Source: a virus
Reading direction: 5' to 3' (one strand)
IMG/VR virus record: IMGVR_UViG_3300023284_000614
Location: 1-29,942 of that record
Length of the DNA stretch: 29,942 nt
Shown here: piece by piece, positions 783 to 22,367 of the stretch
Layout: every line of letters begins with the position of its first letter
Numbering within the stretch: position 1 is the first letter of the stretch
Notes under the pieces: model-generated
What the model was told of the DNA's origin: nothing
The model's input: the letters and a program-made list of their open reading frames with translations, nothing else
Databases searched by the model: none
Translations under genes and position numbers: made by a program

Positions 783-2447
783 ATGCCAGCTAACGGTCCT
801 GCGATCAAAAAACGCTACGAACGCCTGAAAAACGAGCGGTTCCAGTACGACGACCGTTGGGAGCGCATGGCGTCATTCATCGCGCCGTCGCGGGAGGGGA
901 TCCGCGTCCAGTTCATCCCCGGCCATAAACAGGGCCGGAACGTCTATGACTCCACGACGATGATGGCAGCGGAGATTTCGGCCCATTTCATCGCCGGCCA
1001 CGTCATCAATCCAGGGCAACAATGGATGAACCTCCGGATGCGGCAACCCGAGTTTAATCAGGTGGATAGCATCCTGGAATGGCTTGAGGAGGTGCGGGAC
1101 CGGATGCTGCGGCGGTTCGCGTCCTCCATGTTCTACGCGGAAGCGCCCGAGAGCCTCATTGATTATGTGGGGTTCGGCACCGCGAATATGTTGATCGAGG
1201 AACAGCCGCAACCCCCGAATGAAATCCTCACCGGCTTCCGTGGGTTTATGGTCCAGGCCAACAAGATCGGGCGCTACGTCATCGCGGAAGGCCCCGATGG
1301 CATGGTGGATACCATGATGCGGGAGCACAAGTTGACGGCGCGGGCCATCCAGGACCAATGGCCGAATCAGACTTTGCCCATGAACGTCAGGGTGTCCTTG
1401 GAGAAGAACGAGGTCGATAAGCAGTTTACGATTATTCATGCCATCGAGCCCCGGCCGATCGCGGATCAAACGCGGGCCGGCGCTCTCGGGATGCCCTGGC
1501 AGTCCGCCTGGGTCGAGGAGGAGACAAAGCATTTGATTCTGGAGAGCGGCTTTCAGGTCTTTCCGGGTGCGGTCGCCCGCTATCAGAAAACGCCGGGCGA
1601 GGTCTACGGTCGTGGGCGGGGCGACCTGGCGTTTGCCGACACCTGGACCCTCAACACGGCGAAACGCATGGGACTTGAGGATTGGGCACTCAAAATCCGG
1701 CCCCCGATCCTGACCCGGCACGATTCGGTCATCGGCACGCTGCGATTGACGCCGGCCGGCCCGATGAGCGTCAACACCCACGGGGCTCCGATCCGCGATG
1801 TCATCATGCCATTCGAGACAGGATCCCGTCCAGAAGTCTCCCAAATCAAGGAGGAGGAGCTCCGGAAGTCGATCCGGCAAATCTTCTTTGTCGATCAGAT
1901 CCTTGCCCTCATGGAAGTCCAGAAAACGGAGATGACGGCCTTCGAGTTCGCCAAGAAGATCGAACTCCTGTTCCGGTTGCTCGGCCCCGTGTATGGCCGG
2001 CTGGAATGGGAATTTCTCCATCGGATCATTGACATCGCCTTCGAGACAATGCAGGCCGCGGGCGAGTTGCCACCTCCGCCTCCGGAAATCTTCGAGACGG
2101 ACGGCGAAATCGACGTGGAGTTCCAAAATCCCATTGCGAAGGCACAACGGGCGGGTGACGTCGAGGCGATTACGCTGGCGATCAACGACCTGGCCCCGCT
2201 CGCGCAAATCTTTCCCGAGATATGGGACGGCTTCGATCCCGATAAGACCCGTGCCCATGTGTTCGACGTCCGCGGTGTCCCGGCGAAGGTGGCGCGAAAT
2301 GAGGACGAGATCGAGGCCGTTCGCGTTGCGCGGCAGCAGCAACAGGAGCAGGAACAAGCCCTGCAACAAGCCGCGCAAATCAGCGAGGCAGCCAAAAATC
2401 TCGCCCCGATTCTCAAGGTTGGGCAGGGCGACCAAGGCGGGAGGTAG
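783..2447 (+). CDS. Head-to-tail connector (portal) protein
   Basis: This protein forms the twelve-subunit ring at the unique capsid vertex through which DNA enters and leaves and onto which the tail tubular proteins dock. It is 554 residues, the usual size for the podovirus head-tail connecting family (PF12236-like). Landmarks are an N-terminal segment with YERLKNERFQYDDRWERMASFIAP, the loop YGRGRGDLAFADTWTLN near residues 275-290, and MTAFEFAKK near 384-392 (the MTA-E/F motif of the family). A Gln-rich tail follows at about 517-530. It starts right after the preceding stop. A 520-codon open frame runs antisense through it but looks like a composition shadow. Confidence 0.93.
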   Translation: MPANGPAIKKRYERLKNERFQYDDRWERMASFIAPSREGIRVQFIPGHKQGRNVYDSTTMMAAEISAHFIAGHVINPGQQWMNLRMRQPEFNQVDSILEWLEEVRDRMLRRFASSMFYAEAPESLIDYVGFGTANMLIEEQPQPPNEILTGFRGFMVQANKIGRYVIAEGPDGMVDTMMREHKLTARAIQDQWPNQTLPMNVRVSLEKNEVDKQFTIIHAIEPRPIADQTRAGALGMPWQSAWVEEETKHLILESGFQVFPGAVARYQKTPGEVYGRGRGDLAFADTWTLNTAKRMGLEDWALKIRPPILTRHDSVIGTLRLTPAGPMSVNTHGAPIRDVIMPFETGSRPEVSQIKEEELRKSIRQIFFVDQILALMEVQKTEMTAFEFAKKIELLFRLLGPVYGRLEWEFLHRIIDIAFETMQAAGELPPPPPEIFETDGEIDVEFQNPIAKAQRAGDVEAITLAINDLAPLAQIFPEIWDGFDPDKTRAHVFDVRGVPAKVARNEDEIEAVRVARQQQQEQEQALQQAAQISEAAKNLAPILKVGQGDQGGR

Positions 2448-5034: not shown

Positions 5035-5970
5035 ATGAGTATCACAGTCGATCAGGCATGGGTGTATCGCTTTCACGATATGCTCAATCTGACCTATCAG
5101 CAACAGGGCTCGCTCCTGGAGAACATGATCGCGCCTGAAATGGTCCACCGGGACGTGAGCGCGGCGATCGACTTCCATGAGCGGCTTGGGAACGTCATCG
5201 CCAATGACGTTATCAGCCCGTTCGGACAGACGAAAATCCTCAACCCGGCGCACTCCAGGCGCTCGGCTACGCTGCAAAGCTCTGATGCGGCGGTGCTGAT
5301 CTCGGACGAGAACACCCTCCGGAGCATGGTCAATCCCCAAAACGGCTACACCAACACCATCGTCTTTGCCATGGGGCGGCGGGCCGACAAGCACATCCTT
5401 GACGCCTCTATCGGTACGGCCACGACAGCGGCCGTGACAACCGGAACAGGTGTCATCACGTTCGGCACGCAAGCCATGCTGGCTGCCCATCAGATCGGCG
5501 GCGCAACGGCGATGGACCTGGCGCGGATCATCAACGCTGCCGAGCTCCTAAGCAAAGCCGGCGTCCCGAACGGGCCGAGTGAGCGCATGTTCTGGTACAG
5601 CCCCGGCCAGTTGCGCGACATTCTGGCCATCACTCAGGCGAGCTCGTCCGACTTCACCAGGAACCAGATCCACGATTTCGGCACCATCAACGGCGTGTCA
5701 TGGGAAGGGTTCCGATGGACCGAGATTGCCGATGTGGTGGATCCCTCACTGACCGTCTTGCAACGGATGCTGGCGCTGACAGGGACCACGCGCTCCTGTG
5801 TGGCCGCGCATAAGGCTGCGATCGGGCTCTCGATCGCCCAGGACACCACCACGAAGATCAACGAGCGGCCGGACCTGAACAACAGTATCCAGGTGCGAGC
5901 GGTCAAGAAGATGACGGCCGTGCGTGTGTGGGAAGGCGGCGTCGTGCAGGTGGACGCGCTAGAGAACTAA
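5035..5970 (+). CDS. Major capsid protein
   Basis: A 311-residue shell protein of the podovirus 'phage capsid protein' group (HK97-like fold expected). Recognisable parts are the N-terminal helix region VYRFHDMLNLTYQQQGSLLE with the Q-x-GS-x-L signature, the loop NPAHSRRSATLQSSDAAVLI (the 'H-x-RR' element before a DxAVLI strand), and the helix GYTNTIVFAMGRRADKHIL. The C-terminus is a strand-rich VRAVKKMTAVRVWEGGVVQV. It follows the scaffold at the expected place and has its own folded leader and a strong ribosome site, in keeping with high expression. No decoration or cleavage site is evident. Confidence 0.9.
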   Translation: MSITVDQAWVYRFHDMLNLTYQQQGSLLENMIAPEMVHRDVSAAIDFHERLGNVIANDVISPFGQTKILNPAHSRRSATLQSSDAAVLISDENTLRSMVNPQNGYTNTIVFAMGRRADKHILDASIGTATTAAVTTGTGVITFGTQAMLAAHQIGGATAMDLARIINAAELLSKAGVPNGPSERMFWYSPGQLRDILAITQASSSDFTRNQIHDFGTINGVSWEGFRWTEIADVVDPSLTVLQRMLALTGTTRSCVAAHKAAIGLSIAQDTTTKINERPDLNNSIQVRAVKKMTAVRVWEGGVVQVDALEN

Positions 5971-6019: not shown

Positions 6020-6030
6020 GAGGAGAGGAC

Positions 6031-6465: not shown

Positions 6466-6479
6466 TAAACCTAAGCTGT

Positions 6480-6514
6480 GTGGCTGCGGCTCGGAACGCT
6501 CGGGCCGCAGCCAC
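6480..6514 (+). other. Strong stem-loop after the capsid-associated gene
   Basis: An eleven-pair perfect stem GTGGCTGCGGC / GCCGCAGCCAC with a 13-base loop fills most of the gap to the next gene. No T-run follows, only CCGGGG, which serves as the next ribosome site. It resembles a pause or processing site, or a partial terminator lowering expression of the accessory genes after the capsid genes. Confidence 0.6.
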
Positions 6515-6526
6515 CCGGGGATAACT

Positions 6527-7441: not shown

Positions 7442-7450
7442 GGAGGAGAG

Positions 7451-7915
7451 ATGGCTGAATTATTGCCCGATGCCCAAGTGTTAAGCGTCCTGAGTCAGCT
7501 TGACGCTGACTTGAATACAATGCTGGCCCAACGCAGGGGCCTCGCACAGGTCAAAGGCGTTATGCTGGCGTACATTGAGGCCAAAAAGACGCTAGAGGCG
7601 CTCGAAACCACGCAGAAAGTCAGAGAGAACGATTTAGCCTCTCTCGATAGCAGGATTCATGAAAAGACCAATGCCCTGACGAAGGTGTACAACGAACGCA
7701 AGGAAAAGTATGAAGGACAGCTAAAAGATTTTCTACAGAAAGTTGAGGAGGCAAGAAATCAAAGCGTGAAAGCGGACGCCGACTTGGCCGCAAAGGAGAC
7801 ATTCACAAAAACCCGGTCTGAACAGTTGAATGAGGAGATCAAGGCGAAGTCAAAGGTGCTTGAGACGTTAAATGTCGATTTGGCCACACTCAAGAAAAGG
7901 CATGCCATAGGGTAA
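7451..7915 (+). CDS. Coiled-coil protein
   Basis: A 154-residue protein with no signal peptide and a strong ribosome site (AAGGAGGAGAG). From about residue 38 to 148 it is almost entirely charged heptads (for example EALETTQKVRENDLASLDSRI and LNEEIKAKSKVLETLNVDLATLKK), so a long coiled coil is expected. No enzymatic motif is seen. It lies between two exported proteins and could be a virion or adaptor rod. The function is unknown. Confidence 0.65.
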   Translation: MAELLPDAQVLSVLSQLDADLNTMLAQRRGLAQVKGVMLAYIEAKKTLEALETTQKVRENDLASLDSRIHEKTNALTKVYNERKEKYEGQLKDFLQKVEEARNQSVKADADLAAKETFTKTRSEQLNEEIKAKSKVLETLNVDLATLKKRHAIG

Positions 7916-7949
7916 CGGTCTTTAATCCACCGCGAGGAAAAGGTAAACT

Positions 7950-9473
7950 ATGCGGAAAAATATGATGCGGTCAGCTTTGGTCGCGCTGGCAATCTTGTGC
8001 CTGCCCTTCGGTGCTGATGCCGTGCCTAACCGCCTCACATGCGAAGGCTACCCGGAACCCCGCGTGTTCCTTGAGGCGCAGGCGTGGTGGACCGAGACGG
8101 GCGTTGTTAATCCCCACTTCCGCGAACATATCCATACTGGCACCTGCTTCCCTCTCTACCAGTCTATGACAGGGGATATGACGTTTGATATCCGCGTAAT
8201 CACGCACAACATAAGTCCGGGGTCGCGTCTCCTGACAACGCGGTTCCACACCCCAAGTGGGTTCTCTATAACCCTACGTTGGGATGCAGACTTACCACCG
8301 GGAAACAACACATTTTGGAAGTCCATCACCTTCAACGCAAACGATTTCAATAGCTCCGGCTATAAAGAAATTCGAATGCTTACCGACGTTCGTCACGCTG
8401 ACGGTGATAGATTCCGCTCCTCGTCTGGCTTGCCGCTTCTGATCGAAAACGGTAAATCTGTGAGCCATGACAGGTCGCAACAGGAACGATTCGTGGCAGG
8501 ACGTGGATGGTATACGAGCCGTGGCTATCAAGCTCCACGACTGGACGACGTTATTCCTGATGTAGTGTCCGGTACGTGGACCCCCCGCGTTAGAATGGTG
8601 AGCGCAAGCGGCGGCACCCCTGATTTCCACCAGGTAGTTGTCGATCCTTTCAACCATTTCGAAGGGTTCGCACTGCTTGTCAAGGAGGGGCCAGGGACAT
8701 TTACTGGCGATGTATCCATTGATACAACGCTACTTTCGAACGGTCTACATAAACTGATGCTTCGCACGGATGACATAGCAACAGGCGGTTCTGAACCAGG
8801 AACACTGAGCGGTGTTATAGTGATACCTTTTACCGTGGATAATGGAGGTGGTTTACCTCCTCCACCACCTCCATCGCCACCGACTGCTGAAGTCTGCAAC
8901 GACGGTCTCGACAACGACGGCGATGGTGCGGTAGACTGCGCCGATGTGGATTGTGCCGCCGACCCTGCCTGTCTGCTTCCTCCCCCACCCCCACCCCCAC
9001 AGGGATTCCCAGTAGACCTCCAAGGGGCCACACCCGAGGAAGCTACGGTTATCCTCACCGTTTCCAAACCTTTGGGCGCGACGATAAGTCAAATCGCCAT
9101 GACGGTCTTTGACCCCGATTTCGCGCATGAAGGGGAGCTATTTATCAACGGGAATGGGCCTATTCTCCTCTTTGGGGATCAAGTTGGAGCGGACAACTCC
9201 ACCACCAGAACCGTTTTTGCCGTGAATCCCGCATGGTGGAATGATGGCGACAACACACTGAGATTCGTCCATACCTCGACGGCAGGGTATATCATCCGAA
9301 ATGCTGTCGTCACATTTGACATCTCACCTCCCCCGCCACCACCTCCACCACCCGTTGATTGTCCGGCTTGTCCCGATCCGCCGCCACTGCCTCAATGTGT
9401 GGACGGTCTCGACAACGACGGTGACGGGTTGATTGATTTCGCAGATCCCTCCTGTAGAAATGCCGCTGAATGA
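7950..9473 (+). CDS. Secreted modular protein with poly-Pro linkers and DxDxDG motifs
   Basis: A 507-residue protein. Residues 1-24 form a signal peptide (core [17 protein letters not shown]). Residues 25-296 are a strand-rich N-terminal domain that I do not recognise ([17 protein letters not shown]). Poly-Pro linkers follow at about 303-311, 344-350 and 460-468. Between them are a motif [15 protein letters not shown] (316-341, with four Cys) and a strand-rich domain (354-458). A second motif, [15 protein letters not shown], lies at 483-502. These Asp/Gly motifs are of the calcium- or metal-binding kind seen in MopE-like and thrombospondin type 3-like repeats of secreted bacterial proteins. 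The ribosome site is GAGGAAAAGG. The architecture looks bacterial rather than viral and suggests capture from a host. A surface or adhesin role is inferred. Confidence 0.75.
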
Positions 9474-9485
9474 GAGAGGCGCGAT

Positions 9486-10043
9486 ATGCCAGAGCAGCGG
9501 TTTGTCCTCATCGAAGTCACACGATTGGCAGACCGCTACTTCCTGCAATATATCAGTGATGGAGGCGCAGAGAGGTTGCGTGAACTTTCCGAGTCTGACC
9601 ACGACTTGATTATACGCTGGCGGGCTGCGGACCAGATAACACCGAGGGTGTTACGTGGAGAGATCACAGTAGATCAAGTAGTTCTACCGTGGCAACGATC
9701 TATCGTTGCTGCCCAGGTCGCTATGAACCCCGGTGCTCGGCAAAATGAGATCCAGCGTGGCCAAGGCATCGAGGCCCGAGAGCATCCGAATCCCCCACAC
9801 CAATGGAGATTTGCGGGGATTTTTGCAGGTGTCCCGACATATAACACGGCATCAAAGGATTTTGAGCCTCACAATATCAGCGTAGAGCCAACTGTTGTCC
9901 TTGTTTGGACCCCCACGATGGACAACGGGGAGGATCTGCTTAGGTCAGAACATGCTGTACAACGAGATGGATTTGGGAAGATTACGCTTGTTCCTGATCC
10001 ATCTGGGTTTCAGGTCATAGCAGGAGAGCTTATATGGCCATAG
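9486..10043 (+). CDS. Hypothetical protein of the accessory island
   Basis: A 185-residue soluble protein with a GAGAGG ribosome site. The first half is acidic and helical (ADRYFLQYISDGGAERLREL, SDHDLIIRWRAADQ). The middle has ARQNEIQRGQGIEAREH. The C-terminus is strand-rich with NISVEPTVVLVWTP. I recognise no family. Its end overlaps the next start by ten bases, suggesting a coupled pair. Position suggests a virion accessory protein, but this is not shown. Confidence 0.5.
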   Translation: MPEQRFVLIEVTRLADRYFLQYISDGGAERLRELSESDHDLIIRWRAADQITPRVLRGEITVDQVVLPWQRSIVAAQVAMNPGARQNEIQRGQGIEAREHPNPPHQWRFAGIFAGVPTYNTASKDFEPHNISVEPTVVLVWTPTMDNGEDLLRSEHAVQRDGFGKITLVPDPSGFQVIAGELIWP

Positions 10044-10753
10044 TCGTAGAGTCCACTCACGGGTTCAACTCCAACGGAACCACCGCAACCACGCATACGA
10101 TGACGGGTGTAACGTCAGCCAATAGTAACAGGTGCTTGGCCGGGGGCGTTGCTATAGGATCAAGAAGTACAACACTCACCAGTTTGGTACGTGGTGGGAC
10201 CGAAACATTCAACATACGAAACGACATAGCAGCCGTTGGCGCTGGTGAGAATGTAAGAACCTATATACTGGATTTCGTAGAGCCAGCAACTTCCGCCGCG
10301 GATGTAGTGGCTACTATTAGTTCAAGTAGGCGAGTTGGTATGGCACTCTTTTCAATGAGTGGAGTGAACCAGACCACCCCATCTGGTACACCGAAAGAGG
10401 CTTCCACTAGTAATGGCAATGTTACATCAGCATCCCTAGATGTCGATTCCGATAGTGATGATCTTGTCATTGACTGTCTCGGTACATTAGGCGATGCCAC
10501 CGCGCATGTAATAGGTTCTGGCCAGGGCAATGAGATAGATGCGGAATCCGATTCTGACTTTACTAGTCGTGTTGACTTGTTCGGTTCCACCGAGGCGCAT
10601 AGTGGTGGTAGTACAACCACCATGAGTTGGACCTGGACTACGGCTACGTCATACGCGCATGAGGGCATGGCAATCAAGGAAGTGGCGGTGGGCGCGGTAA
10701 GTATTCCCGTAGCCATGCACGAATATCGTCAACGACATCAATCGTTAGTGTAA
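10034..10753 (+). CDS. Strand-rich probable virion protein
   Basis: A 239-residue protein rich in Thr, Ser and Gly (VVESTHGFNSNGTTATTHT, then TSANSNRCLAGGVAIG and TTTMSWTWTTATSYAHEGMAIKEV). This is the layout of a phage beta-sandwich domain that often forms tail or baseplate appendages. There is no signal peptide. The last 20 residues (VAMHEYRQRHQSLV) look like an added tail. The start has AGGAGA upstream and overlaps the preceding gene. A receptor- or surface-contact role is likely from its place just before the fibre-like gene, but is not proved. Confidence 0.55.
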   Translation: MAIVVESTHGFNSNGTTATTHTMTGVTSANSNRCLAGGVAIGSRSTTLTSLVRGGTETFNIRNDIAAVGAGENVRTYILDFVEPATSAADVVATISSSRRVGMALFSMSGVNQTTPSGTPKEASTSNGNVTSASLDVDSDSDDLVIDCLGTLGDATAHVIGSGQGNEIDAESDSDFTSRVDLFGSTEAHSGGSTTTMSWTWTTATSYAHEGMAIKEVAVGAVSIPVAMHEYRQRHQSLV

Positions 10754-10764
10754 AGGATTAGGGG

Positions 10765-13332
10765 ATGCCATATTTGCGGCAATCTACATCACAAACAATC
10801 CGCTTCGGGCCGTGTCTCGACAAGACTGACGGTGTGACCGAGGAGACGGCCCTTACCCTTGCTCAAGCTGACATGCGGCTCTCTAAAGACGGCGGGGCGT
10901 TTGCACAGAAAAATGCCTCAGGCAATGCGACCCATGATTCGGACGGGTGGTATTCCACGACTCTGAACACCACGGATACGAACACTGTGGGAGAACTGAT
11001 CCTGAACGTACATCAACCGGCAAATATGCTTCCTGTATGGTTACGATGGTATGTGATTGAGGAGCCCATCTATGATGCGCTCTTTGGCGGTGCTGCTACC
11101 GGCTTCGACGCGAACCAGCGTGTAGATGTGGGCGCGTGGCTAGGACAGGCGGTGCCTACTCCTGCCGTGACAGGCGTGCCGCGGGTAGATACACAACATA
11201 TCAATGGTATTGACAAGGCCGCTGTAGTCCTCGCTGGGTGGCTGAATGAGGGCAAGAATAACGCCGCGGACAGTGGTACGACCACGACACTGGTGGACGC
11301 GGCTAACGACGAGGCCGACGATCATTGGAATGGTACGCTTCTTGTCTTTATATCCGGGACTAACGATGGACGAGCTAGGGTAATTACCGATTTTGATGCC
11401 GCGACTGATACTATTACTTTTACGCCAGCTTTGCCAGACGCAGTTACTACAGAAAGCTATGTTCTTATCCCCGGCCTTTGTCTATCAGACGTACAGGCCT
11501 GGCTCGGAACAGCGCCTGCTACTCCCACCGTGGCGGGCGTGCCGGAAGTTGACGTCACTCACCTGGGAGGAGGCGCGCAATCCGCTACGGATCTCAAAGA
11601 TTTTGCCGATGCGGGCTACGATCCTGCCGCTAACAAAGTTGAAGGCGTCAAGTTGGTCGATACCACGACGGCGAACACCGACATGCGCGGCACGGATAGC
11701 GCGGCACTTGCATCAGTAGCTACCGAGGCGCGTCTTGCAGAGCTCGATCCCGCCAACCTGCCAGCCGATGTCGATGCAATTCTTGTGGATACGGGAACCA
11801 CGCTCGATACCAAGTTAGATGACATCCAAGGCGCGACATTCAGCAGCGCCACGGATTCGCTGGAGGCGATCCGCGATCGTGGTGACGCCGCCTGGACAAC
11901 TGGTGGTGGTACGGGCTTGACGCCACTCGCGTCAGGGACAGCACAGGGCGGTACGGCTTCGACCATTCAGCTTGCGGCCGGCGAGACGTTTGCAGATGAC
12001 GAATTGAATGGCAATGTCGTGAAGATCACCTCGGGAACTGGAGCGGGACAGTCAAGAGTCATTACTGATTATGCTGGTGCGACTGATACGGCCACTATCG
12101 CACCGAACTGGACGACAAATCCAGATGCCACATCCGTCTACGAGGTTGTTGAAGGATCGTCAAATGTCGTGCAGGTTGAAGGCCTTGATGCCACCGACCA
12201 GATCCGCGACTCGATACTAGATGATGCGACTCGCTTCTCGGGAGCCGACATTGATGCTGCGATCACATCAAGGCTCGCTCCAACGGTTGCCGGTCGGACA
12301 TTAGACGTGACTCCTGGGGGCGCAGCCGGGATTGATTGGGCCAATGTTGAGAATCCCACCACGGCGCTTGACTTGTCAGGCACCGACATACAGTTGGTCG
12401 ATACGACCACCATCAATACCGATATGAGAGGCACAGACAGTGCGGCCTTAGCCTCCGTCGTAGGTGCCCTGGCTGATGCGGCGGCAGCAGGCGATCCCAC
12501 CGCGACAGATACGATCGTGGCCTATGTGAAGCAACTGATTAACACGCTTGAAGGGACTACGGGAATCCCCACTTACCCGGCTGCGGCGGATCCGGCCAAC
12601 AACGTGAGCATCGCGGAAGCCATCCGTGCCATTCGGGATGACGTGACAGGGATCGCCGGTGCAGCAATGAGAGGCACGGACAACGCTGCATTGGCATCGG
12701 TCCTTGGCGCTTTAGCGGACGCGGCGGCTGATGGCGACCCAACTGCCGTAGATACGCTGATGCAATACGTCAAACAGTTGGTCAATATCCTGGTCGGGAC
12801 CACAGGGATCGTTACTTTCCCGGCTGAAGCTGCCCCTGCAAACAATGTGTCTCTCGCGGAGGTTATGCGGGCGATTCACGCCGATGTTACCGGCTTGGCC
12901 GGTGCCGCCATGCGGGGTACGGATAGTGCCGCTCTGGCGTCAGTTGCTACGGAGGCACGCTTGGCCGAGTTGGATGCGGCGAATCTTCCGGCTGACGTTG
13001 ACTTAATCTTGGCAGACACGAACGAACTACAGACGGACGATGTGCCTGGCCTGATCGCGGCGTTGAATGATCTCTCGGCCGCACAAGTCAATACGGAAGT
13101 CGCGGATGTCTTAAAGACGGATACTATTGCCGAATTGAGTCAGGCCGCCCCGACAGCAACGCCTAGCTTTGAAGCGGCCCTTATGCTGCTCTACATGGCA
13201 CTCAGAAACAAGCTGGACATTACCGCCGGCTTCAAAGAAGTCCACAACGATGCGGGCACCGTGATTACCAAGAAAGTCCTGTCTGATGACGGGACCACAT
13301 ACTCCGAAGCCGAGATGGTCACTGGTCCCTAA
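10765..13332 (+). CDS. Repeat-rich fibre-like protein
   Basis: An 855-residue protein of the phage fibre or appendage type. Residues 1 to about 110 form a strand-rich N-terminal domain (SQTIRFGPCLDKTDGV, LSKDGGAFAQKN). Two related strand modules lie at about 190-237 and 416-464, each built around a G-x-x-RVITD-x-x-AATDT core. The motif MRGTD(S/N)AALASV occurs at residues 307, 554, 635 and 716; the last three are exactly 81 residues apart. Spacers such as NLPADVD and VKQL(I/V)N are typical of trimeric fibre shafts. The end (MALRNKLDI to NDAGTVITKKVLSDDGTTYSE) is a common C-terminal cap in phage appendages. The start has AGGATTAGGGG upstream. Its binding target is unknown. Confidence 0.75.
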   Translation: MPYLRQSTSQTIRFGPCLDKTDGVTEETALTLAQADMRLSKDGGAFAQKNASGNATHDSDGWYSTTLNTTDTNTVGELILNVHQPANMLPVWLRWYVIEEPIYDALFGGAATGFDANQRVDVGAWLGQAVPTPAVTGVPRVDTQHINGIDKAAVVLAGWLNEGKNNAADSGTTTTLVDAANDEADDHWNGTLLVFISGTNDGRARVITDFDAATDTITFTPALPDAVTTESYVLIPGLCLSDVQAWLGTAPATPTVAGVPEVDVTHLGGGAQSATDLKDFADAGYDPAANKVEGVKLVDTTTANTDMRGTDSAALASVATEARLAELDPANLPADVDAILVDTGTTLDTKLDDIQGATFSSATDSLEAIRDRGDAAWTTGGGTGLTPLASGTAQGGTASTIQLAAGETFADDELNGNVVKITSGTGAGQSRVITDYAGATDTATIAPNWTTNPDATSVYEVVEGSSNVVQVEGLDATDQIRDSILDDATRFSGADIDAAITSRLAPTVAGRTLDVTPGGAAGIDWANVENPTTALDLSGTDIQLVDTTTINTDMRGTDSAALASVVGALADAAAAGDPTATDTIVAYVKQLINTLEGTTGIPTYPAAADPANNVSIAEAIRAIRDDVTGIAGAAMRGTDNAALASVLGALADAAADGDPTAVDTLMQYVKQLVNILVGTTGIVTFPAEAAPANNVSLAEVMRAIHADVTGLAGAAMRGTDSAALASVATEARLAELDAANLPADVDLILADTNELQTDDVPGLIAALNDLSAAQVNTEVADVLKTDTIAELSQAAPTATPSFEAALMLLYMALRNKLDITAGFKEVHNDAGTVITKKVLSDDGTTYSEAEMVTGP
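12424..12909 (+). repeat. Two tandem 81-codon units inside the fibre-like gene
   Basis: Units of 243 bases begin at 12424 and 12667, and a third begins at 12910 but diverges after about 13 codons. Each encodes MRGTD(S/N)AALASV, ALADAA, a YVKQL helix, GTTGI, ANNVS and AxxRAI, ending in AGAA. Codon choice differs between units, so the duplication is not recent at the DNA level. Confidence 0.8.
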
Positions 13333-13334
13333 AG

Positions 13335-13538
13335 ATGGCGATAGACACGGCAGAAAAGCGGCGGTCCATCTCGGGGATTTGGATTCCGTTGATGCCTGGC
13401 GTGACGCCAAACGCGGCCCAGGATCTTCAATGGAGACAAGAATCAGGCTGGTCGTATAGTGGGATACCGCCCACTGGTGCCGTTGTGCAATTACAGAAAG
13501 ATATAAGGCGGGGGTGGTATCGGACGTTTAGAACATAG
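13335..13538 (+). CDS. Small phage protein after the fibre-like gene
   Basis: A 67-residue protein with MAIDTAEKRRSISGIWIPLMPGVTP at the start and WRQESGWSYSGI later. Small proteins with this start (EKR-S), a Pro-Gly-V-T-P element and a YSGI end are common beside phage tail or appendage genes and remain of unknown function. It begins three bases after the preceding stop and probably relies on coupling, as no good ribosome site is seen. Confidence 0.6.
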   Translation: MAIDTAEKRRSISGIWIPLMPGVTPNAAQDLQWRQESGWSYSGIPPTGAVVQLQKDIRRGWYRTFRT

Positions 13539-13547
13539 GAGCGGATC

Positions 13548-13826
13548 ATGGCTAACGATGTGACGAACAGTCCATTTATTATCGACACGCCAGGCGCAGG
13601 GGTCATTTTCGCTCAAGCGATCCGCGTGCGCGGTATTCGATGGGTGGGAGGAACCACAGCCGGCCATCTCGTAAGTGTCACCGATTCAAACGATATTGAA
13701 AAATGGGCTTCAGAGGCGGCCGGCGCAAACCATGTAGAGGCAGATGATATTTACGACGAAAAACTGTGGCAGGGCCTCAAGGTTCCTACTCTCCAATCAG
13801 GGAAACTCTATATCGAATTGTGGTAA
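13548..13826 (+). CDS. Small conserved phage structural-type protein
   Basis: A 92-residue strand-rich protein: MANDVTNSPFIIDTPG, IRVRGIRWVGGTTAGHLVSVTD, and LWQGLKVPTLQSGKLYIELW at the end. This layout (IDTPG, RWxGxTxAGH, GLxVPTLxSGxLYI) recurs in small podovirus proteins next to appendage genes. It is probably a virion accessory. An AGGAGCGG ribosome site supports the start. It directly precedes the tail tubular A cluster. Confidence 0.65.
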   Translation: MANDVTNSPFIIDTPGAGVIFAQAIRVRGIRWVGGTTAGHLVSVTDSNDIEKWASEAAGANHVEADDIYDEKLWQGLKVPTLQSGKLYIELW

Positions 13827-13848: not shown

Positions 13849-15378
13849 ATGTTCGTCACAGTAGGTACATATGTTGGCACTGGTATTGCCTTCAAAATCC
13901 AATTAACCTTTAAACCTAAAGTCATTCTAACATGGACTGAGGACGAAGGCTCGCCTGACCATCTAGGTTGGAAAACGACGGATATGTCGGGGGCTTTTGG
14001 GATCAACGCTTTTTCCGCGGGTACGGGGCTCGCTGATAATGTCTGCACCATAGAAGATGATGGATTTACTGTAGGTACAGCTATCATTATGAACAGAAAT
14101 ACCGATGTCTATTATTGGATGGCTGTCGGTGGATCTGATGTCTTTGTTACGAGTTATGTCGGTACTGGGCTGGATGATAGGCCGCTTACGGGATTTGGCT
14201 TCAAACCCGATTATGTAATGATTAAGAGAGATGGAGGACTTCCAGTAACGGATTCAGTACCATTTTATACTCTCAAAAGTAATATCGTTGGCGAGGCCAT
14301 GCACTGGGGAGACGTAGGGTTCTTTATTACTGGAGCTATTAAGACGTTGGAGGCTGATGGAGTTACTCTCGGGACTCGTAGTGATGTTAATAAAAGCGGT
14401 GAGCCCTATTTTTTGATGGCCTTCAAAGAAACGCCGGGAGTATTTGAACAAGGATCCTATACTGGGACCGGCATTGCTAGAACTATTTTTCTTAATGATG
14501 CCGCGCTCACTCCTGTTGTCGTTTCCTGTAAGATCAGCCGTACAACGAGTGGTAATCGAAACGTCAAGCACATCAATCTTGCTGGTAATCTAAGTTTCAT
14601 ACTGAGGGCTGGAGATTACAATCCTGGTACGCTAGACATCACAGAGGTAGGACAACTAGGCGAATTTAAAGTTGGCATTGGGTCATTAGCTAATCGCAGT
14701 GGATTTGCCGTCCATTATACTGCTTTTGATGCAACCGCCGCACCACCGATTGTGCCAGCGCCCGCGCCGATCCCCGTTGATAGGACGGAGACTGACATCA
14801 TCAATGATGCACTCGGACAGATCGGTGCAAGGCGCATAACCTTATTGAGCTCTGGCGAGCCCAATGCCAACTTCGCACTCTGTTTCTATGCGACCTTGCG
14901 CGATGACCTGCTCCGATTGTCGCATTGGCGTTTTGCCACAGGGCGCGCTCATCTACCCCAGGATGCCACCACCCCCGCCTTCGAATTTGCCTTTCAATAC
15001 ACCCTTCCGGCCGACTTTATTAAGCTGCGTGAGTATAACGGTGCAAATACGGACACTACGAATCTGAGCCTGTTCGAGAGGTCGCAGATCCCTCGTTTCA
15101 AAGTAGAAGGTCGCAAACTCCTCACCAACGACGGCGAAGTGAAGATCGTTTACACAAAACGAATTACCAACCCGAACCTTTTTGACCCTATGTTTTATCA
15201 AACGCTCTCGACATGGCTGGCGTCAAAGCTGGCGGATGCGATCACGAAAGACAGGGAGAAGTCGGACTCCCTCGTCACGCAGGCCCTTGAGGTTCTCCTC
15301 CCGATGGCCGCTGCTGTCGATGGCCAGGAGGGCAGCGTGGAGCCCTATCGTTCGGACGATTTGATTATAGGAAGATAG
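13849..15378 (+). CDS. Tail tubular protein A fused to a three-repeat lectin-like region (paralogue 1)
   Basis: A 509-residue fusion. Residues 1-295 hold three ~98-residue repeats starting at about 6, 102 and 202, each opening with (T/S)Y-x-GTG; the first two contain F-K-P and a DG-x-T-x-GT element. This resembles the DUF7483-like (concanavalin-type) domain of phage appendages. A Pro/Ala linker (about 296-311) joins it to residues 312-509, a tail tubular A (T7 gp11-type gatekeeper) domain: TETDIINDALGQIG, DDLLRLSHWRFATGRA, QYTLPADFIKLREYN, VYTKRITNP, DGQEGSVEPY. That domain forms the ring between portal and nozzle. GGGGTGAC precedes the start. Hand counts give 43-48% GC in three repeat-region segments and 58% in a C-terminal segment, which hints at separate origins. 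Confidence 0.85.
   Translation: MFVTVGTYVGTGIAFKIQLTFKPKVILTWTEDEGSPDHLGWKTTDMSGAFGINAFSAGTGLADNVCTIEDDGFTVGTAIIMNRNTDVYYWMAVGGSDVFVTSYVGTGLDDRPLTGFGFKPDYVMIKRDGGLPVTDSVPFYTLKSNIVGEAMHWGDVGFFITGAIKTLEADGVTLGTRSDVNKSGEPYFLMAFKETPGVFEQGSYTGTGIARTIFLNDAALTPVVVSCKISRTTSGNRNVKHINLAGNLSFILRAGDYNPGTLDITEVGQLGEFKVGIGSLANRSGFAVHYTAFDATAAPPIVPAPAPIPVDRTETDIINDALGQIGARRITLLSSGEPNANFALCFYATLRDDLLRLSHWRFATGRAHLPQDATTPAFEFAFQYTLPADFIKLREYNGANTDTTNLSLFERSQIPRFKVEGRKLLTNDGEVKIVYTKRITNPNLFDPMFYQTLSTWLASKLADAITKDREKSDSLVTQALEVLLPMAAAVDGQEGSVEPYRSDDLIIGR
14860..14936 (+). repeat. 77-base tract identical to 17014-17090
   Basis: This part of paralogue 1 (encoding the region PNANFALCFYATLRDDLLRLSHWRF) is identical base for base, including all synonymous positions, to the matching part of paralogue 3. 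The flanking bases differ at many third positions. This is the mark of recent gene conversion or recombination. Confidence 0.9.
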
Positions 15379-15379
15379 G

Positions 15380-15979
15380 ATGCCAAGCGAAACCGATCTT
15401 CTTAACGATGCCCTCTGTCAAATTGGCGCAAGTTTTATCGTCGCTATTGACGATGGCACGATCAATGCTATCCATTGTCAGACATTCTATCCGAAGCTGC
15501 GCGATGATCTCTTGCGCTCGGCGCACTGGCGGTTTGCCGCTGCCAGGGAGGAACTCGTCCAGGATGTTGCGAAACCCTTATTTGAGTTCGCGTTCCAGTA
15601 TAGCCTCCCGGCCGATTTCCTCAAGATCCGAGAATACAACGGGGCCAGCCTCGATACGACGAACCTGGCACTTTTCGAGCGGGCAACGGTCAGACGATTC
15701 GAGATCGAGGGCCAGAAGCTAGTCACCAATGATGGAGAGGTTAAAATCGTATTTACCAAACGCATCACCGATCCGAATATCTTTGATTCCTTATTTTATC
15801 AGACATTGACCACCTGGCTCGCCTCCAAGTTGGCCAACGCTATCACCAAGGATACGGAAAGATCCGTTAATCTTCTCAAGAAGGCGATTCAAGTCCTCTT
15901 GCCCATGGCTCTCAACGTAGACGGCCAGGAGGGCAGCGTTGAACCGTATGTTGCGGACGAGTTGGTGAGAGGCAGATGA
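15380..15979 (+). CDS. Tail tubular protein A, stand-alone (paralogue 2)
   Basis: A 199-residue gatekeeper protein, the normal size for the T7 gp11 family. It has the same landmarks as its neighbours: SETDLLNDALCQIG, RDDLLRSAHWRFAAAREEL, QYSLPADFLKIREYNGAS, VFTKRITDPNIFD, NVDGQEGSVEPYVADEL. It is clearly more diverged than the C-terminal domains of paralogues 1 and 3 are from each other. No lectin-like region is attached. The start follows the previous stop by one base and has GGAAGATAGG upstream. It is the best candidate for the ancestral ring subunit. Confidence 0.9.
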   Translation: MPSETDLLNDALCQIGASFIVAIDDGTINAIHCQTFYPKLRDDLLRSAHWRFAAAREELVQDVAKPLFEFAFQYSLPADFLKIREYNGASLDTTNLALFERATVRRFEIEGQKLVTNDGEVKIVFTKRITDPNIFDSLFYQTLTTWLASKLANAITKDTERSVNLLKKAIQVLLPMALNVDGQEGSVEPYVADELVRGR

Positions 15980-15996
15980 TGCGCGGAGAAACCTAA

Positions 15997-17532
15997 TTGA
16001 ACGTCAAGGTTGGCATATACATAGGGAACGCGGCCGCTCGCTCGATTACCGGCATCGGCTTCAAACCAGAAGTCGTATGGCTTATCGAGAAGGAAACTAG
16101 CGGGGATGAACACGGATCTATGGGCTTCCTCACAGCCTCGGCTGCGTCCGTAGTTCTGCTCCAAAACCTTGGATCGGCACCCGCTTTTGATGCTGGTCTA
16201 ATTACGATGGACTCGGATGGGTTCACGCTGACGAGTTCCGTCAAGACCAATACGCTAAATACCACCTACTTCTTCCTTTGTCTTTCCGCTGGTGCCGGAG
16301 GCGATTTCAAACAAGGCACCTACACAGGCGATGGCGCGGGAAGTAAGGTCATTAACGGACTCGGATTCAAGCCGGATTTTGTCTTTATCCGCGGCGATCA
16401 GACCGGCCTGCAGGCCCATTACGCCCTAAAGGATATGCCTGCTGGCGCGGCAAAAGAATTTGGCGGAACCGGCGTGCATCGGTTTCTTATTATCAATACC
16501 CTGGATGCTGACGGCTTTACCGTAGGCACCAGCGATGCGTCAAACAAGATCAATACGGTCTACCACTATTTTGCACTGAAGGTCCAGGCAGGCGTATGCG
16601 ACGTTGGCACTTATACGGGTACGGGCACCCCACACATGGAAAGTCTTAGTGACAGCAACCTTACGCCAGATTGGATGTTGACGTCCTTTTCCTTTCTTGC
16701 CCCTTCCTTTCCGGTTATTGCCACGGTAGATACGGTCGCAACGGGCTTGAGCATTGCATGTAAAAGTACGCTGGAGACAGAAGATTTGACCAACGGCATC
16801 ACGGCATTACTTACTGGGGGGTTCAATATCGGGGGCAATGCGAATGTTAATCGTAACACCTCTGCTTATTTCTACATTGTTCTTGAGAACAACAACGAAA
16901 TTACTCCTCCAACTGGAGTGCCACCTCCCACCGATAGAACGGAAACGGATCTCATCAATGATGCTTTAAGCCAGATCGGCGCGAAGCGGATCACCCTCCT
17001 AAGTTCCGGCGAACCCAATGCCAACTTCGCACTCTGTTTCTATGCGACCTTGCGCGATGACCTGCTCCGATTGTCGCATTGGCGTTTTGCGACCGGGCGG
17101 GCAAATCTGCCCCAGGATGCAACGACGCCGGCGTTTGAGTTTGCGTTTCAATATACGTTGCCGGCTGATTTAATCAAACTGCGGGAATATAATGGCGCAA
17201 ACACCGACAGGACGAATCTTGTCCTCTTTGAGCGGTCACAGCCTGCCCGCTTCAAAATCGAGGGCCGGAAGCTGCTATCAAACGATGGAGAGGTCCACAT
17301 CGTCTATACCAAGCGGATCACCAATCCGAACAAGTTTGATCCGATGTTCTTTCAAGCCCTTGCGACGTGGCTCGCGTCGAAACTGGCCGACGCGATCACA
17401 AAAGACAGGCAGAAGTCTGATGCGCTGATGAGTCAGGCGGTTGAGATTCTGCTTCCAATGGCAGCGGCGGTGGATGGGCAAGAGGGGAGCGTGGAATCTT
17501 ATATCTCTGATGAACTCCTCAGAGGCCGGTAA
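15997..17532 (+). CDS. Tail tubular protein A fused to a three-repeat lectin-like region (paralogue 3)
   Basis: A 511-residue fusion built like paralogue 1. Repeats begin at about residues 6, 107 and 204 with G-x-Y-x-G; two show GFKP(E/D)-x-V and a DGFT element. A Pro-rich linker (about 303-312, TPPTGVPPPT) leads to the tail tubular A domain at 313-511. That domain is about 85% identical to paralogue 1's by eye, while the lectin-like regions have diverged strongly. The start is taken as TTG 15997, with CGGAG upstream; no ATG is suitably placed before the first repeat. The stop overlaps the nozzle start by one base (TAATG). Whether all three paralogues enter one ring is not known. Confidence 0.84.
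   Translation: MNVKVGIYIGNAAARSITGIGFKPEVVWLIEKETSGDEHGSMGFLTASAASVVLLQNLGSAPAFDAGLITMDSDGFTLTSSVKTNTLNTTYFFLCLSAGAGGDFKQGTYTGDGAGSKVINGLGFKPDFVFIRGDQTGLQAHYALKDMPAGAAKEFGGTGVHRFLIINTLDADGFTVGTSDASNKINTVYHYFALKVQAGVCDVGTYTGTGTPHMESLSDSNLTPDWMLTSFSFLAPSFPVIATVDTVATGLSIACKSTLETEDLTNGITALLTGGFNIGGNANVNRNTSAYFYIVLENNNEITPPTGVPPPTDRTETDLINDALSQIGAKRITLLSSGEPNANFALCFYATLRDDLLRLSHWRFATGRANLPQDATTPAFEFAFQYTLPADLIKLREYNGANTDRTNLVLFERSQPARFKIEGRKLLSNDGEVHIVYTKRITNPNKFDPMFFQALATWLASKLADAITKDRQKSDALMSQAVEILLPMAAAVDGQEGSVESYISDELLRGR
17014..17090 (+). repeat. 77-base tract identical to 14860-14936
   Basis: This is the second copy of the conversion-like tract, lying in the gatekeeper domain of paralogue 3. 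The stand-alone paralogue 2 does not share the identity. Confidence 0.9.
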
Positions 17533-19754
17533 TGCCGAAAACCAGACGTCTTTTAACTAATTTTTCTAAGGGAGAGTTGAGTCCCAGGATTGAGGGCCGC
17601 CCCGATCTGGCTGCCTATTTCGAGGGTGCAAACACCATAGAAAACTTTAGGCTCATGCGCCAGGGAGGCCTTGACAGGCGGCCAGGGACGCGGTTCGTCG
17701 CAGAAGTCAAGGATAATGCCAAGGACACGATCATCGTCCGCTTCGAGTTCAGCGTAGCCCAGGCATTTGCGATTGAATTTGGGGAGCTCTATATCCGTTT
17801 TTACAAAAATGGCGCACAGATTATGAGTGGCGGATTACCCTTTGAGATTGCCAGCCCCTATCTCGAAGCGGAGTTGAGGGATCTGCACTTCACACAGTCT
17901 GCCGATATTATTTTTATATTCCATGAAAATCACTTGCAGCGGAAGTTAAGTCGAGTCTCTGACACGAATTGGACTCTGGCGAGTTTCGACGCGAATCCTC
18001 CGCCGTCCTTTGAGTCGGATGTGGACATATCGGGAGGTGGCACGCTCACGCCGGGGGCGACCACGGGATTAGGCGTGACTTTCACGGCTTCTGTCGCCGC
18101 GTTTCTCGCTGCTGATGTTGGGCGACAGATCATCTTTGGTGCGTCCAAAGCAAATATCGTTGGCTTTACGTCCAGCACCGTCGTTACGGCTGATATTATT
18201 GATGATTTTCCAGACACGAACCCGATCCCGAGCGGAAGCTGGTTCTTGCGGCTGTCGCCACAGACGGCACTTACTCCGACGATCAAAGAACCGATAGGGG
18301 CTCAGGTAACACTCACAGCGGCCGCCAACGCTTTTTCGACTTCTGATGTGGGTAAATTTATTACGATCTTCGGCGGTCTTGTGGAGATCACACAACGAAC
18401 CTCGGCCACCGTTATTGTGGGAATAATCCGCACAGTATTGGTAGACGCCGCAACCCCGATTGTCGCGGCACCCGCTGGATCATGGACCCTGGAGGTCAAC
18501 TCCTGGAGCGCGGCCCGCGGATTTCCGCGCACAGGCGAGTTCCATCAGGGGCGACTCGCACAGGCGGCATCGCTGGCGGAACCGACGACGTGGTGGCTTT
18601 CGGCTTCGGACGATTTCGAGAACTATGGCGTCGGAAGCCTCGCGGACAATGCGCTGGAATATACCATTGCCGCCCCCCAGGTCAACAGGATCGAGTGGCT
18701 GGCAGACAATATCGACCTGTTTCTTGGCACAGCCGGCTCAGAGTTCCGAGCCAAAGGCCCCTCCATTGACCAGCCCATCGGCGGCGATGTGCTTCCGCTT
18801 GTCGTCAGGCAGACGACAGAAGGCTGCTCACACATCCAACCTATCGTCATCGGTAGACAGATCATCTTTGTGGATCGCAGTTTCACGCAAATCCTCCAAT
18901 TAGGATTCAGCCTAGAGGCAGATACGTTCATCGCATCCGAGATCACGGATATTGCGGAACAGATCACCGGGTCAGGCATCAGGCTTGGCGGTATTGGGCA
19001 GCAAAAGCGACCGGATCCGATCATCTATTTCGTCAGGCAAGACGGTGAGCTCGTTGTCTTGACCTACTTCCTATCGCAAAAGGTCGTAGGGTTCACGCGA
19101 TATGTCACCGATGGCACATTCGAGTCCGTTGCGGTACTCCCACCGCGAGGAACGACGGTTGAGGATGAAGTATGGGTGATTGTGAAGCGGACCATCAACG
19201 GAGCCACGAAACGGTATGTGGAGTTTTTCGATCATACGCCGAGCGAGTTCCTGACGAGGCCATGGGTGACACTCCAGACGGATTCTGCCTTTATCTTTGA
19301 TGGGGCAGCTACGACGACGATTACCGGCCTGACCCACCTAGAGGGCGAGACAGTGGACGTGGTGGCGGATGATGCGTTTCGCGGAACGAAGGTGGTGGCA
19401 TCCGGCCAGATCACGCTTGATGAGGCGGCCAGCAAAGTCGAGATTGGGCTCCATTATAACTCGAAGCTGGTAACGATGCGGCCCGCTGTCCAGGGCGAAG
19501 TGCTTGAGGGTCTCCCGCGCAGTTGGGACAAACTCTTTGTCAGGCTCCTGGAGACTATTGGCGGCACCGTGAACGGTGAACAACTCAAATATGTGCCCGA
19601 TCCCCTGGACACCAAAACGCTATTTGTCGGTGACAAAGAAGTAACGGGCCTGGGGTGGGACACCGTGGGTCGGATCACGGTCGAACAGTTGCAGCCCTAT
19701 CCGATGAAGCTATTGGCAGTTTTTGGCACGCTGTCGATCGGAGACACGGATTGA
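17532..19754 (+). CDS. Tail tubular protein B (nozzle)
   Basis: A 740-residue T7 gp12-type nozzle protein that forms the hexameric distal tube of the short tail. The N-terminus is diagnostic: LLTNFSKGELSPRIEGRPDLAAYFEGANTIENF then QGGLDRRPGTRFVAEVK, with AFAIEFGELYIRFYKNG next. The middle carries strand-rich beta-propeller-like stretches (for example FPRTGEFHQGRLAQAASLAEPTTWWLSASDDFENY and DGELVVLTYFLSQKVVGFTRY). The C-terminus holds VQGEVLEGLPRSWDKLFVRLLETIGG. The length is close to the family norm. It begins one base inside the preceding stop. Confidence 0.93.
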   Translation: MPKTRRLLTNFSKGELSPRIEGRPDLAAYFEGANTIENFRLMRQGGLDRRPGTRFVAEVKDNAKDTIIVRFEFSVAQAFAIEFGELYIRFYKNGAQIMSGGLPFEIASPYLEAELRDLHFTQSADIIFIFHENHLQRKLSRVSDTNWTLASFDANPPPSFESDVDISGGGTLTPGATTGLGVTFTASVAAFLAADVGRQIIFGASKANIVGFTSSTVVTADIIDDFPDTNPIPSGSWFLRLSPQTALTPTIKEPIGAQVTLTAAANAFSTSDVGKFITIFGGLVEITQRTSATVIVGIIRTVLVDAATPIVAAPAGSWTLEVNSWSAARGFPRTGEFHQGRLAQAASLAEPTTWWLSASDDFENYGVGSLADNALEYTIAAPQVNRIEWLADNIDLFLGTAGSEFRAKGPSIDQPIGGDVLPLVVRQTTEGCSHIQPIVIGRQIIFVDRSFTQILQLGFSLEADTFIASEITDIAEQITGSGIRLGGIGQQKRPDPIIYFVRQDGELVVLTYFLSQKVVGFTRYVTDGTFESVAVLPPRGTTVEDEVWVIVKRTINGATKRYVEFFDHTPSEFLTRPWVTLQTDSAFIFDGAATTTITGLTHLEGETVDVVADDAFRGTKVVASGQITLDEAASKVEIGLHYNSKLVTMRPAVQGEVLEGLPRSWDKLFVRLLETIGGTVNGEQLKYVPDPLDTKTLFVGDKEVTGLGWDTVGRITVEQLQPYPMKLLAVFGTLSIGDTD

Positions 19755-20203: not shown

Positions 20204-20694
20204 TTGCGCTCGGGCTCGGCCTAGTTGGAACTGCGGGTCAGGTAATTTCAGAAAGGGGGGCTGCTGAATCGGAGGCACAACAAGCGGAGGCACAGGCCCG
20301 CCTGGCTGACATTGAGGCGGGCAGCATCGAGAGTGCCGCACGGGCGGAGGAGGACGCAGATCGTAGGCGCACGGCGAGGATCCTGGGCAAACAGCGGGCC
20401 GTGAGTGGCGCGGCAGGTATTGACATTACCTCCGGCAGTGCCCTGCTCCTTGAACTTGATTCCGCCAAGGAAGCCGAGTTGAGCGCATTGACGATCCGAC
20501 AGAGGGGTGCAGTTGGCGTTAGGGGTAAACGACAAGAGGCCATTTTCGCTCGGCAACAAGCCGGCATCGCACGCGGACGCAAAGGCGCAGCAATCGCAAA
20601 GGGTATATTTCGGGGCGGGAGCCTTTTGACTGAGTTCGCAGGTCCACAATTCTTTAGCGGATCAGCTACCAAGAAAGCGGGGAGGATAAGATAA
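20182..20694 (+). CDS. Internal virion protein, T7 gp14-like
   Basis: A 170-residue Ala/Glu/Arg-rich helical protein. The N-terminus is hydrophobic (ILPLVALGLGLVGTAGQVI) and could insert into a membrane after ejection. Residues 25-80 form a long charged helix (EAQQAEAQARLADIEAGSIE). A Gly/Ser element then follows (GAAGIDITSGSALLLELDSA), which is shared by small internal core proteins of podoviruses. The start at 20182 is preferred: GAGAGG lies just upstream, while the longer reading overlaps the GNAT gene. It overlaps that gene by 22 bases. Confidence 0.7.
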   Translation: MGPILPLVALGLGLVGTAGQVISERGAAESEAQQAEAQARLADIEAGSIESAARAEEDADRRRTARILGKQRAVSGAAGIDITSGSALLLELDSAKEAELSALTIRQRGAVGVRGKRQEAIFARQQAGIARGRKGAAIAKGIFRGGSLLTEFAGPQFFSGSATKKAGRIR

Positions 20695-22367
20695 TGACTC
20701 TCGCCGTACAAGCAGGACGTGATGATTTCATCGGCAACAGCGTTGCTGTTGATTTCACTTTCACCTTTCGGATCCTGACCAGCAGCGGTATATCCGTCTT
20801 TCTCGATGGTGTCGCACAGACGCTCGCCACACATTTTACGCTCTCGGGCGTCGGTGATGCCAGCGGAGGGACGGTCACTTTCATTACCGCACCCGGCAAC
20901 AACGTGGCCGTACTGTTACTGCGAAATCAGGCCTTGGAGCAGTTGAGCAATTACCAACCGAATGAGGACCATCCCGCCGAACGTATCGAGTCGGATTTCG
21001 ATGACCTCACCATGCAGGTCCAGATGCTCCAGGAGGAGGTCGGCCGCTGTATTAAACTCCCGAAGAAATCTTTGCAGAGCGATAAGGATGTAGATGATCT
21101 CGTCGCGGACAAGTTCCTCAAGGTCAAGGCGGCTGCGGCGGGTGTCCAAATGGCCGATCTGGCGGCAGCGGGCGCGATCACGATACCCGTTACGGTTGCG
21201 GAAGGAGGGACAGGTGCAACAACGGCAGCGGCGGCGCGGGACACGCTCTTGGCGGACGAGGACGCCCGAACCAATACGGTTAAGGTTGTCGCCACGAAGA
21301 AAGCCACTACCACCGGCACGCCGGCTGCTGGCATCGGCGTCGGTGACAAATGGCAGGCCGAGAGCGCAGACGAGAATCCGTCAGATTTTGGACAGATTGA
21401 GTTTGCAGCTACGGACGTTACCGCTGCTTCCGAAGATACCTATATGCAGACCTTGCTTAGAGTGGCCGGCGCTGCCCTAGTCTCCTGCTACCGATGGGCT
21501 GCAACGGGAGCCTTTAACGCGATCTTCACTCATGCCAATACCGCTGCCCGGACCTTTACGCTGCCCGACAAAGATGGCATCTTCGCCATGACCAATGATG
21601 TCACGGTCTTGCGCGGCTATCTGTCCGGCCTTGGCATGACGAATAACGCAGTCGATGCAGACCATGATATTGATTTCGCTGTGGGCGTGGCGGTTGATGA
21701 TGCCTTCGCTACGCTCATGTCGCAGGTGACATCGCCCTTAATCAAACAGATCGACAACGGATGGGTGGTGGGCACTAATCAGGGCGGACTCGATACGGGC
21801 GCTGTGGCAGCAGACCTATGGTATCACACCTGGCTTATCCGCCGCTCCGATACTGGTGTGGTTGACTGTCTATTCAGCCTGTCGGCCACCGCGCCCACGC
21901 TGCCCACAAATTACGACGAGAAGCGGCGTATCGGGGCCGTCCTCACGGATGGGAGCTCTAACATCATCGCCTTCAAGCAGAATGGCGACGAGTTCAAGTG
22001 GGATGTGCCAGTTCAGGATCAAAGCGGAACCAATCCAGGCGTCGCCCCGGTGACGGAAACAGTTACAGTGCCGCTTGGCGTGGTGGTTCATGCCATCTGT
22101 GCGTTCCACGCTTCGGATCCAAGTCCAGCAGCGTCAACCTTCCTATTTGTGAGTTCGCTGGATCAAACAGCCACAGCCCCGTCAGCCGCGAACTCCCACC
22201 TACAACTCATCGGGGCTAGTGCGGCGGTGGTGGCAGTTGATTCAACTTTCGCCATCAAAACCGACATCTCGCAACAGTTCCGCACCGAATGGTCTGTCTC
22301 AGATGCAGACCTGACCTTCGAGATAGTGACCCACGGGTGGATCGACCGACGCGGGAGGGATGCCTAA
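20694..22367 (+). CDS. T7-type tail fibre protein
   Basis: A 557-residue fibre. The first ~130 residues follow the T7 gp17 N-terminal plan that attaches to the tail: VDFTFTFRILTSSGISVFLDGVAQ, THFTLSGVGDASGGTVTFITAPG, VAVLLLRNQALEQLSNY, then ERIESDFDDLTMQVQMLQEEV. A shaft element typical of trimeric fibres (VAEGGTGATTAAAARDTLLA) lies at 168-187. The C-terminal half is strand-rich (GYLSGLGMTNNAVDADHDID and DLWYHTWLIRRSDTGVVDC) and probably binds the host. The start overlaps the preceding stop by one base. It lies between core-protein genes rather than after them. Confidence 0.85.
   Translation: MTLAVQAGRDDFIGNSVAVDFTFTFRILTSSGISVFLDGVAQTLATHFTLSGVGDASGGTVTFITAPGNNVAVLLLRNQALEQLSNYQPNEDHPAERIESDFDDLTMQVQMLQEEVGRCIKLPKKSLQSDKDVDDLVADKFLKVKAAAAGVQMADLAAAGAITIPVTVAEGGTGATTAAAARDTLLADEDARTNTVKVVATKKATTTGTPAAGIGVGDKWQAESADENPSDFGQIEFAATDVTAASEDTYMQTLLRVAGAALVSCYRWAATGAFNAIFTHANTAARTFTLPDKDGIFAMTNDVTVLRGYLSGLGMTNNAVDADHDIDFAVGVAVDDAFATLMSQVTSPLIKQIDNGWVVGTNQGGLDTGAVAADLWYHTWLIRRSDTGVVDCLFSLSATAPTLPTNYDEKRRIGAVLTDGSSNIIAFKQNGDEFKWDVPVQDQSGTNPGVAPVTETVTVPLGVVVHAICAFHASDPSPAASTFLFVSSLDQTATAPSAANSHLQLIGASAAVVAVDSTFAIKTDISQQFRTEWSVSDADLTFEIVTHGWIDRRGRDA

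Follow-up and report, generated by a model that had tools for sequence, protein, structure and literature searches.

Three tandem gatekeeper genes, two with N-terminal DUF7483 arms, in an environmental podovirus: candidate stacked and decorated adaptor rings

The virus record IMGVR_UViG_3300023284_000614, analysed here over its full 29,942 bases (the window), encodes a podovirus structural module in which three gatekeeper (adaptor) genes lie side by side. The portal (head-tail adaptor, phrog_332, E 6.3e-114; 783..2447), the major head protein (phrog_3437, E 2.9e-51; 5035..5970), the gatekeeper block (13849-17532) and a T7 gp12-type nozzle (phrog_376, E 1.5e-161; 17532..19754) follow one another on the plus strand in portal-capsid-adaptor-nozzle order, with the nozzle gene adjoining the last gatekeeper downstream. 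Next in the module come an acetyltransferase-like gene, an internal virion protein and a tail-fibre-like protein (20694..22367, plus strand), the first ~115 residues of which match podovirus tail/tail-fibre PHROGs (phrog_1640, E 1.2e-19); judged from these matches, the phage has a fibre that is separate from the gatekeeper arms described below.

All three gatekeeper genes are on the plus strand with open frames, and comprise gkA (13849..15378, 509 aa), in which three DUF7483 repeats and a linker precede the gatekeeper domain, the plain gkB (15380..15979, 199 aa) and the second fused gene, gkC (15997..17532, 511 aa). A PHROG profile search found three phrog_394 ('tail protein') domains in the record, spanning residues 313-508 of gkA (E 1.5e-38), 1-198 of gkB (E 7.9e-40) and 315-509 of gkC (E 4.4e-40), and the domain is thus C-terminal in both long proteins (14785..15375 in gkA, 16939..17529 in gkC). 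These matches and the 63-86% amino acid identity between the copies are not due to chance, and bear out the fused-plain-fused series of tandem paralogues proposed in a preliminary description of this DNA. The start codon of gkC is TTG, directly after an in-frame TAA and downstream of a GGAG-like sequence, and ribosome-binding-like stretches precede both gkB and gkC.

The N-termini of gkA and gkC were identified as DUF7483 (PF24299), scoring 33.8 and 71.1 bits respectively against a Pfam gathering cut-off of 27 bits. Each holds three mutually alignable repeats of ~98 aa, in which Y, G, P and N are invariant, located at about 13855-14142, 14134-14436 and 14437-14754 in gkA (13855..14754) and at 16000-16293, 16297-16587 and 16588-16899 in gkC (16000..16899); a profile made from these same repeats gave exactly three matches per fused protein. 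Both proteins also carry a Pro-rich linker (AAPPIVPAPAPIPVDRTETD and EITPPTGVPPPTDRTETD), mapped to 14743..14784 in gkA (AAPPIVPAPAPIPVDR) and 16903..16938 in gkC (EITPPTGVPPPTDR), and the triple repeat and linker reported earlier for each fusion were therefore confirmed. Repeats and gatekeepers were aligned separately; a joint alignment with DUF7483 proteins had placed repeats onto gatekeepers. At 28% identity, the repeat regions of gkA and gkC are far less alike than their gatekeeper domains.

Modelled alone with DUF7483 relatives, the gkC repeat region was predicted by AlphaFold2 to form three beta units (pTM 0.76). The best structural match was the end of a phage tailspike (Z 5.8), with sialidase/pseudaminidase, discoidin and galectin at 5.0-5.7, all within the noise range. 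A sequence comparison of the repeat alignment with solved structures returned only designed propellers and phosphate-binding proteins (E 0.01-0.02), which were taken as chance, and Foldseek matches were set aside owing to poor TM and mostly high rmsd. The predicted fold is consistent with beta-rich, surface-type domains and points weakly to lectins; since the lectin-flavoured matches lie at noise level, the 'lectin-like' label of the preliminary description is unproven and is withheld here. The same repeat family was found in many other phage contigs, within large multi-repeat proteins that have no gatekeeper domain, and DUF7483 was not mentioned in the literature searched.

Across most of the gkC gatekeeper domain, the AlphaFold2 model reached a pLDDT of about 90. 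Its matches among solved structures included the Carin 1 connector (8ck1, Z 18.0), the LME-1 phage portal-tail complex (Z 15.6), T7 gp11 (6r21, Z 13.4) and 5mu4 (Z 12.6), the superposition on 8ck1 and 6r21 having an rmsd of 3.2-3.4 over 161-173 residues; many further podovirus adaptors were among the matches, and crAss001 structures gave weaker ones, at Z 6.5 (7qoj_F) and 7.6 (7qog_B), which neither establish nor exclude a common arrangement. By sequence family and predicted gkC fold, the three proteins are T7 gp11-type adaptor homologues. With T7 gp11 and KP32 TTPA they share the gatekeeper fold, the location between capsid and nozzle genes and a C-terminal arm ending in Arg; whereas T7-type phages have a single gene of ~190-200 aa, the window has three, two of them 509-511 aa long and carrying 300-aa N-terminal arms. 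This number and length make the locus a less 'standard' gp11, leaving adaptor homology unaffected. KP32 TTPA has itself been described with a lectin-like beta-sheet (PMC5440376).

Amino acid identity between gatekeeper domains was 86% for gkA/gkC, while gkB was 65% and 63% identical to gkA and gkC respectively. In a phylogenetic tree, the three copies formed one clade (92/86) relative to the single-copy relatives L008, L010 and L011. Synonymous sites of the gkA and gkC gatekeeper domains were saturated (pS 0.76) against a pN of 0.085, indicating that the duplication is old and that both copies are constrained; taken with the single clade, the duplications most likely took place within this lineage. 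On these rates, purifying selection holds both fused gatekeeper domains while the arms have diversified. Gatekeeper codons 24-56 depart from this pattern, with only 5 third-position differences between gkA and gkC across 33 codons compared with 110/197 overall (permutation p 5e-5), suggesting a later exchange between the two genes.

Podovirus tails are usually regarded as having an invariable adaptor ring encoded by one gene, and our searches agreed with the earlier statement that the gatekeeper is normally one gene. Every phage record surveyed had one gatekeeper place (113/113 and 119/119), as did 79/80 loci in an unseeded viral scan, leaving multi-gatekeeper loci at 1/80. Clustered at 90% identity, multi-gatekeeper loci accounted for 6/105 clusters, window included, a frequency inflated by the use of tandem proteins as seeds in two of the scans. 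In further scans, repeated gatekeepers were detected in five other environmental phage groups from IMG/VR (L053, L167, L209, L219 and L242). The most extreme is L219, where a single 938-aa ORF upstream of a nozzle comprises five gatekeeper domains (phrog_394, E 6e-173 over five stretches); two domains share one ORF in L053 (365 aa) and in L209, where the ORF is cut by the contig end. In L167 a fused gatekeeper of 308 aa precedes a plain one of 187 aa; in L242 the fused gatekeeper has 309 aa and is followed by a second copy, 260 aa long, that contains an insertion. L264 and L265 duplicate the contigs of L219 and L242. L052 was rejected as a two-copy locus, its one gatekeeper being broken by a stop.

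Like the window, L167 and L242 have an N-terminally fused copy ahead of a second copy, although their N-terminal domain belongs to another family; neither DUF7483 nor the fused-plain-fused order was present in L219, L209, L053, L167 or L242. The search for the fused architecture in other phages, as initially proposed, thus recovered N-terminal fusions of a different kind, and no other DUF7483-gatekeeper fusion was seen with the patterns used among 80 DUF7483-led loci or the listed phage records. The close relatives L008-L012 each encode one plain gatekeeper. Pfam assigned no family to the additional sequence present in the L008 and L011 nozzles.

Each ingredient of the locus has a precedent. 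In crAss001, five stacked dodecameric rings are built from four paralogous ring proteins (gp43, gp40, gp35 and gp34) that are 15-31% identical (PMC10172136); that phage likewise has multiple paralogous gatekeeper-fold genes, but these do not form one tandem block of three, and DUF7483-type arms have not been described for them. Tails of Gram-negative podophages have been reported to contain 'one to three dodecameric adaptors' (2024; PMC11784390). Decoration with a beta domain is known from the gp83 adaptor of Pseudomonas phage DEV, in which a 101-aa, outward-facing lectin-binding domain is inserted between helices 2 and 3 (PMC10925440), in contrast to the window a single gene with one inserted domain rather than three N-terminal repeats. 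Fusion to surface-binding-type domains was also found in the 'tail tubular protein' of Vibrio phages VP2/VP5 (phrog_9239, 741 aa), where phrog_394 at residues 1-189 is followed by Ig domains around 220-385 and a Gly-rich domain; this is a C-terminal fusion to Ig instead of DUF7483, in one gene, and no plain gatekeeper partner was seen in these phages, which had one gatekeeper place per record. The preliminary description knew of no described case. That holds for the exact combination of a triplicated, fused-plain-fused gatekeeper with N-terminal DUF7483 arms, which we did not find elsewhere, but not for multi-ring, insertion-bearing or Ig-fused adaptors individually.

Residues expected to face the nozzle separate the plain copy from the fused ones. 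T7 gp11 contacts the nozzle through acidic residues in its alpha1-alpha2 loop and holds the portal with a C-terminal embracing helix, and neighbouring subunits alternate between two loop conformations on gp12, matching the six-fold nozzle (PMC6702177). The counterpart loop of gkB (ASFIVAIDDGTIN; 15428..15466) retains the near-invariant acidic residue at alignment position 25, where column analysis of single-copy gatekeepers gave a weighted D or E frequency of 93%; the residue is D in gkB and S in gkA and gkC, where an E follows two positions later. The C-terminal Arg (78% of single-copy gatekeepers) and C-terminal stretch are retained in all three copies. The loop difference fits a stack with gkB at the nozzle and gkA and gkC elsewhere, and fits alternating positions in one ring.

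We tentatively favour stacked, decorated adaptor rings over one mixed ring, giving this arrangement close to an even chance. The three genes would supply three adaptor subunits of one short-tailed virion, each forming its own dodecameric ring, with the rings piled, as in crAss001, from the portal down to the nozzle. The nozzle would sit on a ring of plain gkB, and gkA and gkC would make up the ring or rings above; these two could share one ring, their 86% identity being far above that of the crAss001 paralogues. Their triple-repeat arms would lie outside the ring on flexible Pro-rich linkers, up to 12 per decorated ring; the neck would then carry as many as 72 beta domains, belonging to two diverged kinds, which may serve as auxiliary surface-binding (perhaps glycan-binding) domains alongside the separate tail fibre. 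Stacking is preferred because the solved multi-paralogue case, crAss001, stacks its rings, and because twelve positions cannot be filled evenly by chains of five domains such as that of L219, although the short inter-domain link of that chain could suit lateral neighbours as much as stacked ones. In either form, the genes probably specify a tail neck built of rings, whether lengthened or of mixed composition, with extra surface-binding arms.

The adaptor ring is duplicated, decorated and under selection in this phage, and other environmental phages repeat it, with up to five domains per chain. It is conceivable, at somewhat less than an even chance, that this represents a recurrent, undescribed route to longer short tails outside Crassvirales, in which the adaptor domain is multiplied, as separate genes or within one chain (as many as five domains), and stacked as a barrel; in the window, two of three ring types would additionally bear diverged triple-repeat receptor-binding arms. 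How a 12-fold ring protein lengthens a short tail, and whether the head-tail junction can bear receptor-binding domains, are testable questions raised by these genomes.

The alternative that retains most credibility, while less likely than stacking, is the mixed ring suggested in the preliminary description, in which plain and fused subunits would be built into the same dodecamer, for instance in alternation to fit the six-fold nozzle, with arms at some positions only. The close similarity of the gatekeeper domains (86% identity for gkA/gkC, 63-65% to gkB) and the portal arm common to all three copies would suit subunits of one ring, and the two loop sequences could mark its alternating positions, by analogy with the two conformations of T7 gp11. 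The low-difference tract of gkA and gkC suggests homogenisation, as would be expected of interchangeable subunits. Weighing against this arrangement, the multiple paralogues of crAss001 stack, the L219 chain is ill-suited to a 12-fold ring, a half-decorated symmetry would not require three genes, and the literature searched contained no solved structure of a mixed adaptor ring.

We regard as improbable a virion with one working adaptor, probably gkB, in which the fused copies would be virion or secreted adhesins anchored elsewhere, such as on the tail exterior, or alternative subunits in a minority of virions. It would account for retention of the acidic nozzle-loop residue in gkB only, a single plain gatekeeper suffices in L008-L012, and DUF7483 repeats are widespread in phage proteins that lack gatekeeper domains; however, strong purifying selection extends across the whole fused gatekeeper domain, and ring-core and arm residues are retained in the fused copies. 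Mis-assembly, strain mixing or decaying duplicates are nearly excluded: the record is a metagenomic virus fragment, and the preliminary description had named an assembly artefact as an outcome that would count against it, but almost all synonymous sites differ between the copies while the fused gatekeeper domains remain 86% identical, which argues against both artefact and decay, the frames and gene order are intact, gkB and gkC are preceded by ribosome-binding-like stretches, and repeated gatekeepers occur in other phages as well.

Between gkA and gkC, the two fused genes of the gatekeeper trio, gatekeeper codons 24-56 (window 14854-14952 and 17008-17106) form a similar tract, with 5 third-position differences compared with 110 of 197 overall (p = 5e-5). 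This tract likely arose through gene conversion or recombination.

Repeated gatekeepers were also found in other uncultured phage loci, including tandem pairs in L242 (L242:2702-4414) and L167 (L167:1532-3022), the first gatekeeper of both pairs carrying an N-terminal domain of approximately 125 aa with no family assigned. A 76-aa insertion interrupts the second L242 copy, and its location roughly matches that of the lectin-type insertion in the adaptor of Pseudomonas phage DEV. In L219 (same contig as L264), five tandem gatekeeper domains lie within a single 938-aa ORF (L219:6001-8817), the fifth with an insertion of approximately 80 aa and the nozzle gene immediately following, and this ORF possibly encodes a covalently linked multi-ring tail barrel.

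The nozzle gene is divided between two ORFs in L008 (L008:3229-6310), a relative with a single plain gatekeeper, and also in L009. The L008 ORFs cover phrog_376 (nozzle family) positions 1-445 and 452-711, and the second begins with approximately 280 additional residues, for which Pfam gave no name.

Elsewhere in the window, a fibre-like ORF (20694-22367) and a 525-aa ORF without a family match (22289-23866) share 79 bases (22289-22367) in different frames. The stretch between the capsid and gatekeeper genes (window 5970-13826) is long, with many proteins lacking a family match (including ones of 507 and 855 aa), and is likewise long and variable in relatives L009, L012 and L014, where by eye it appears to contain glycosyltransferase-type genes.
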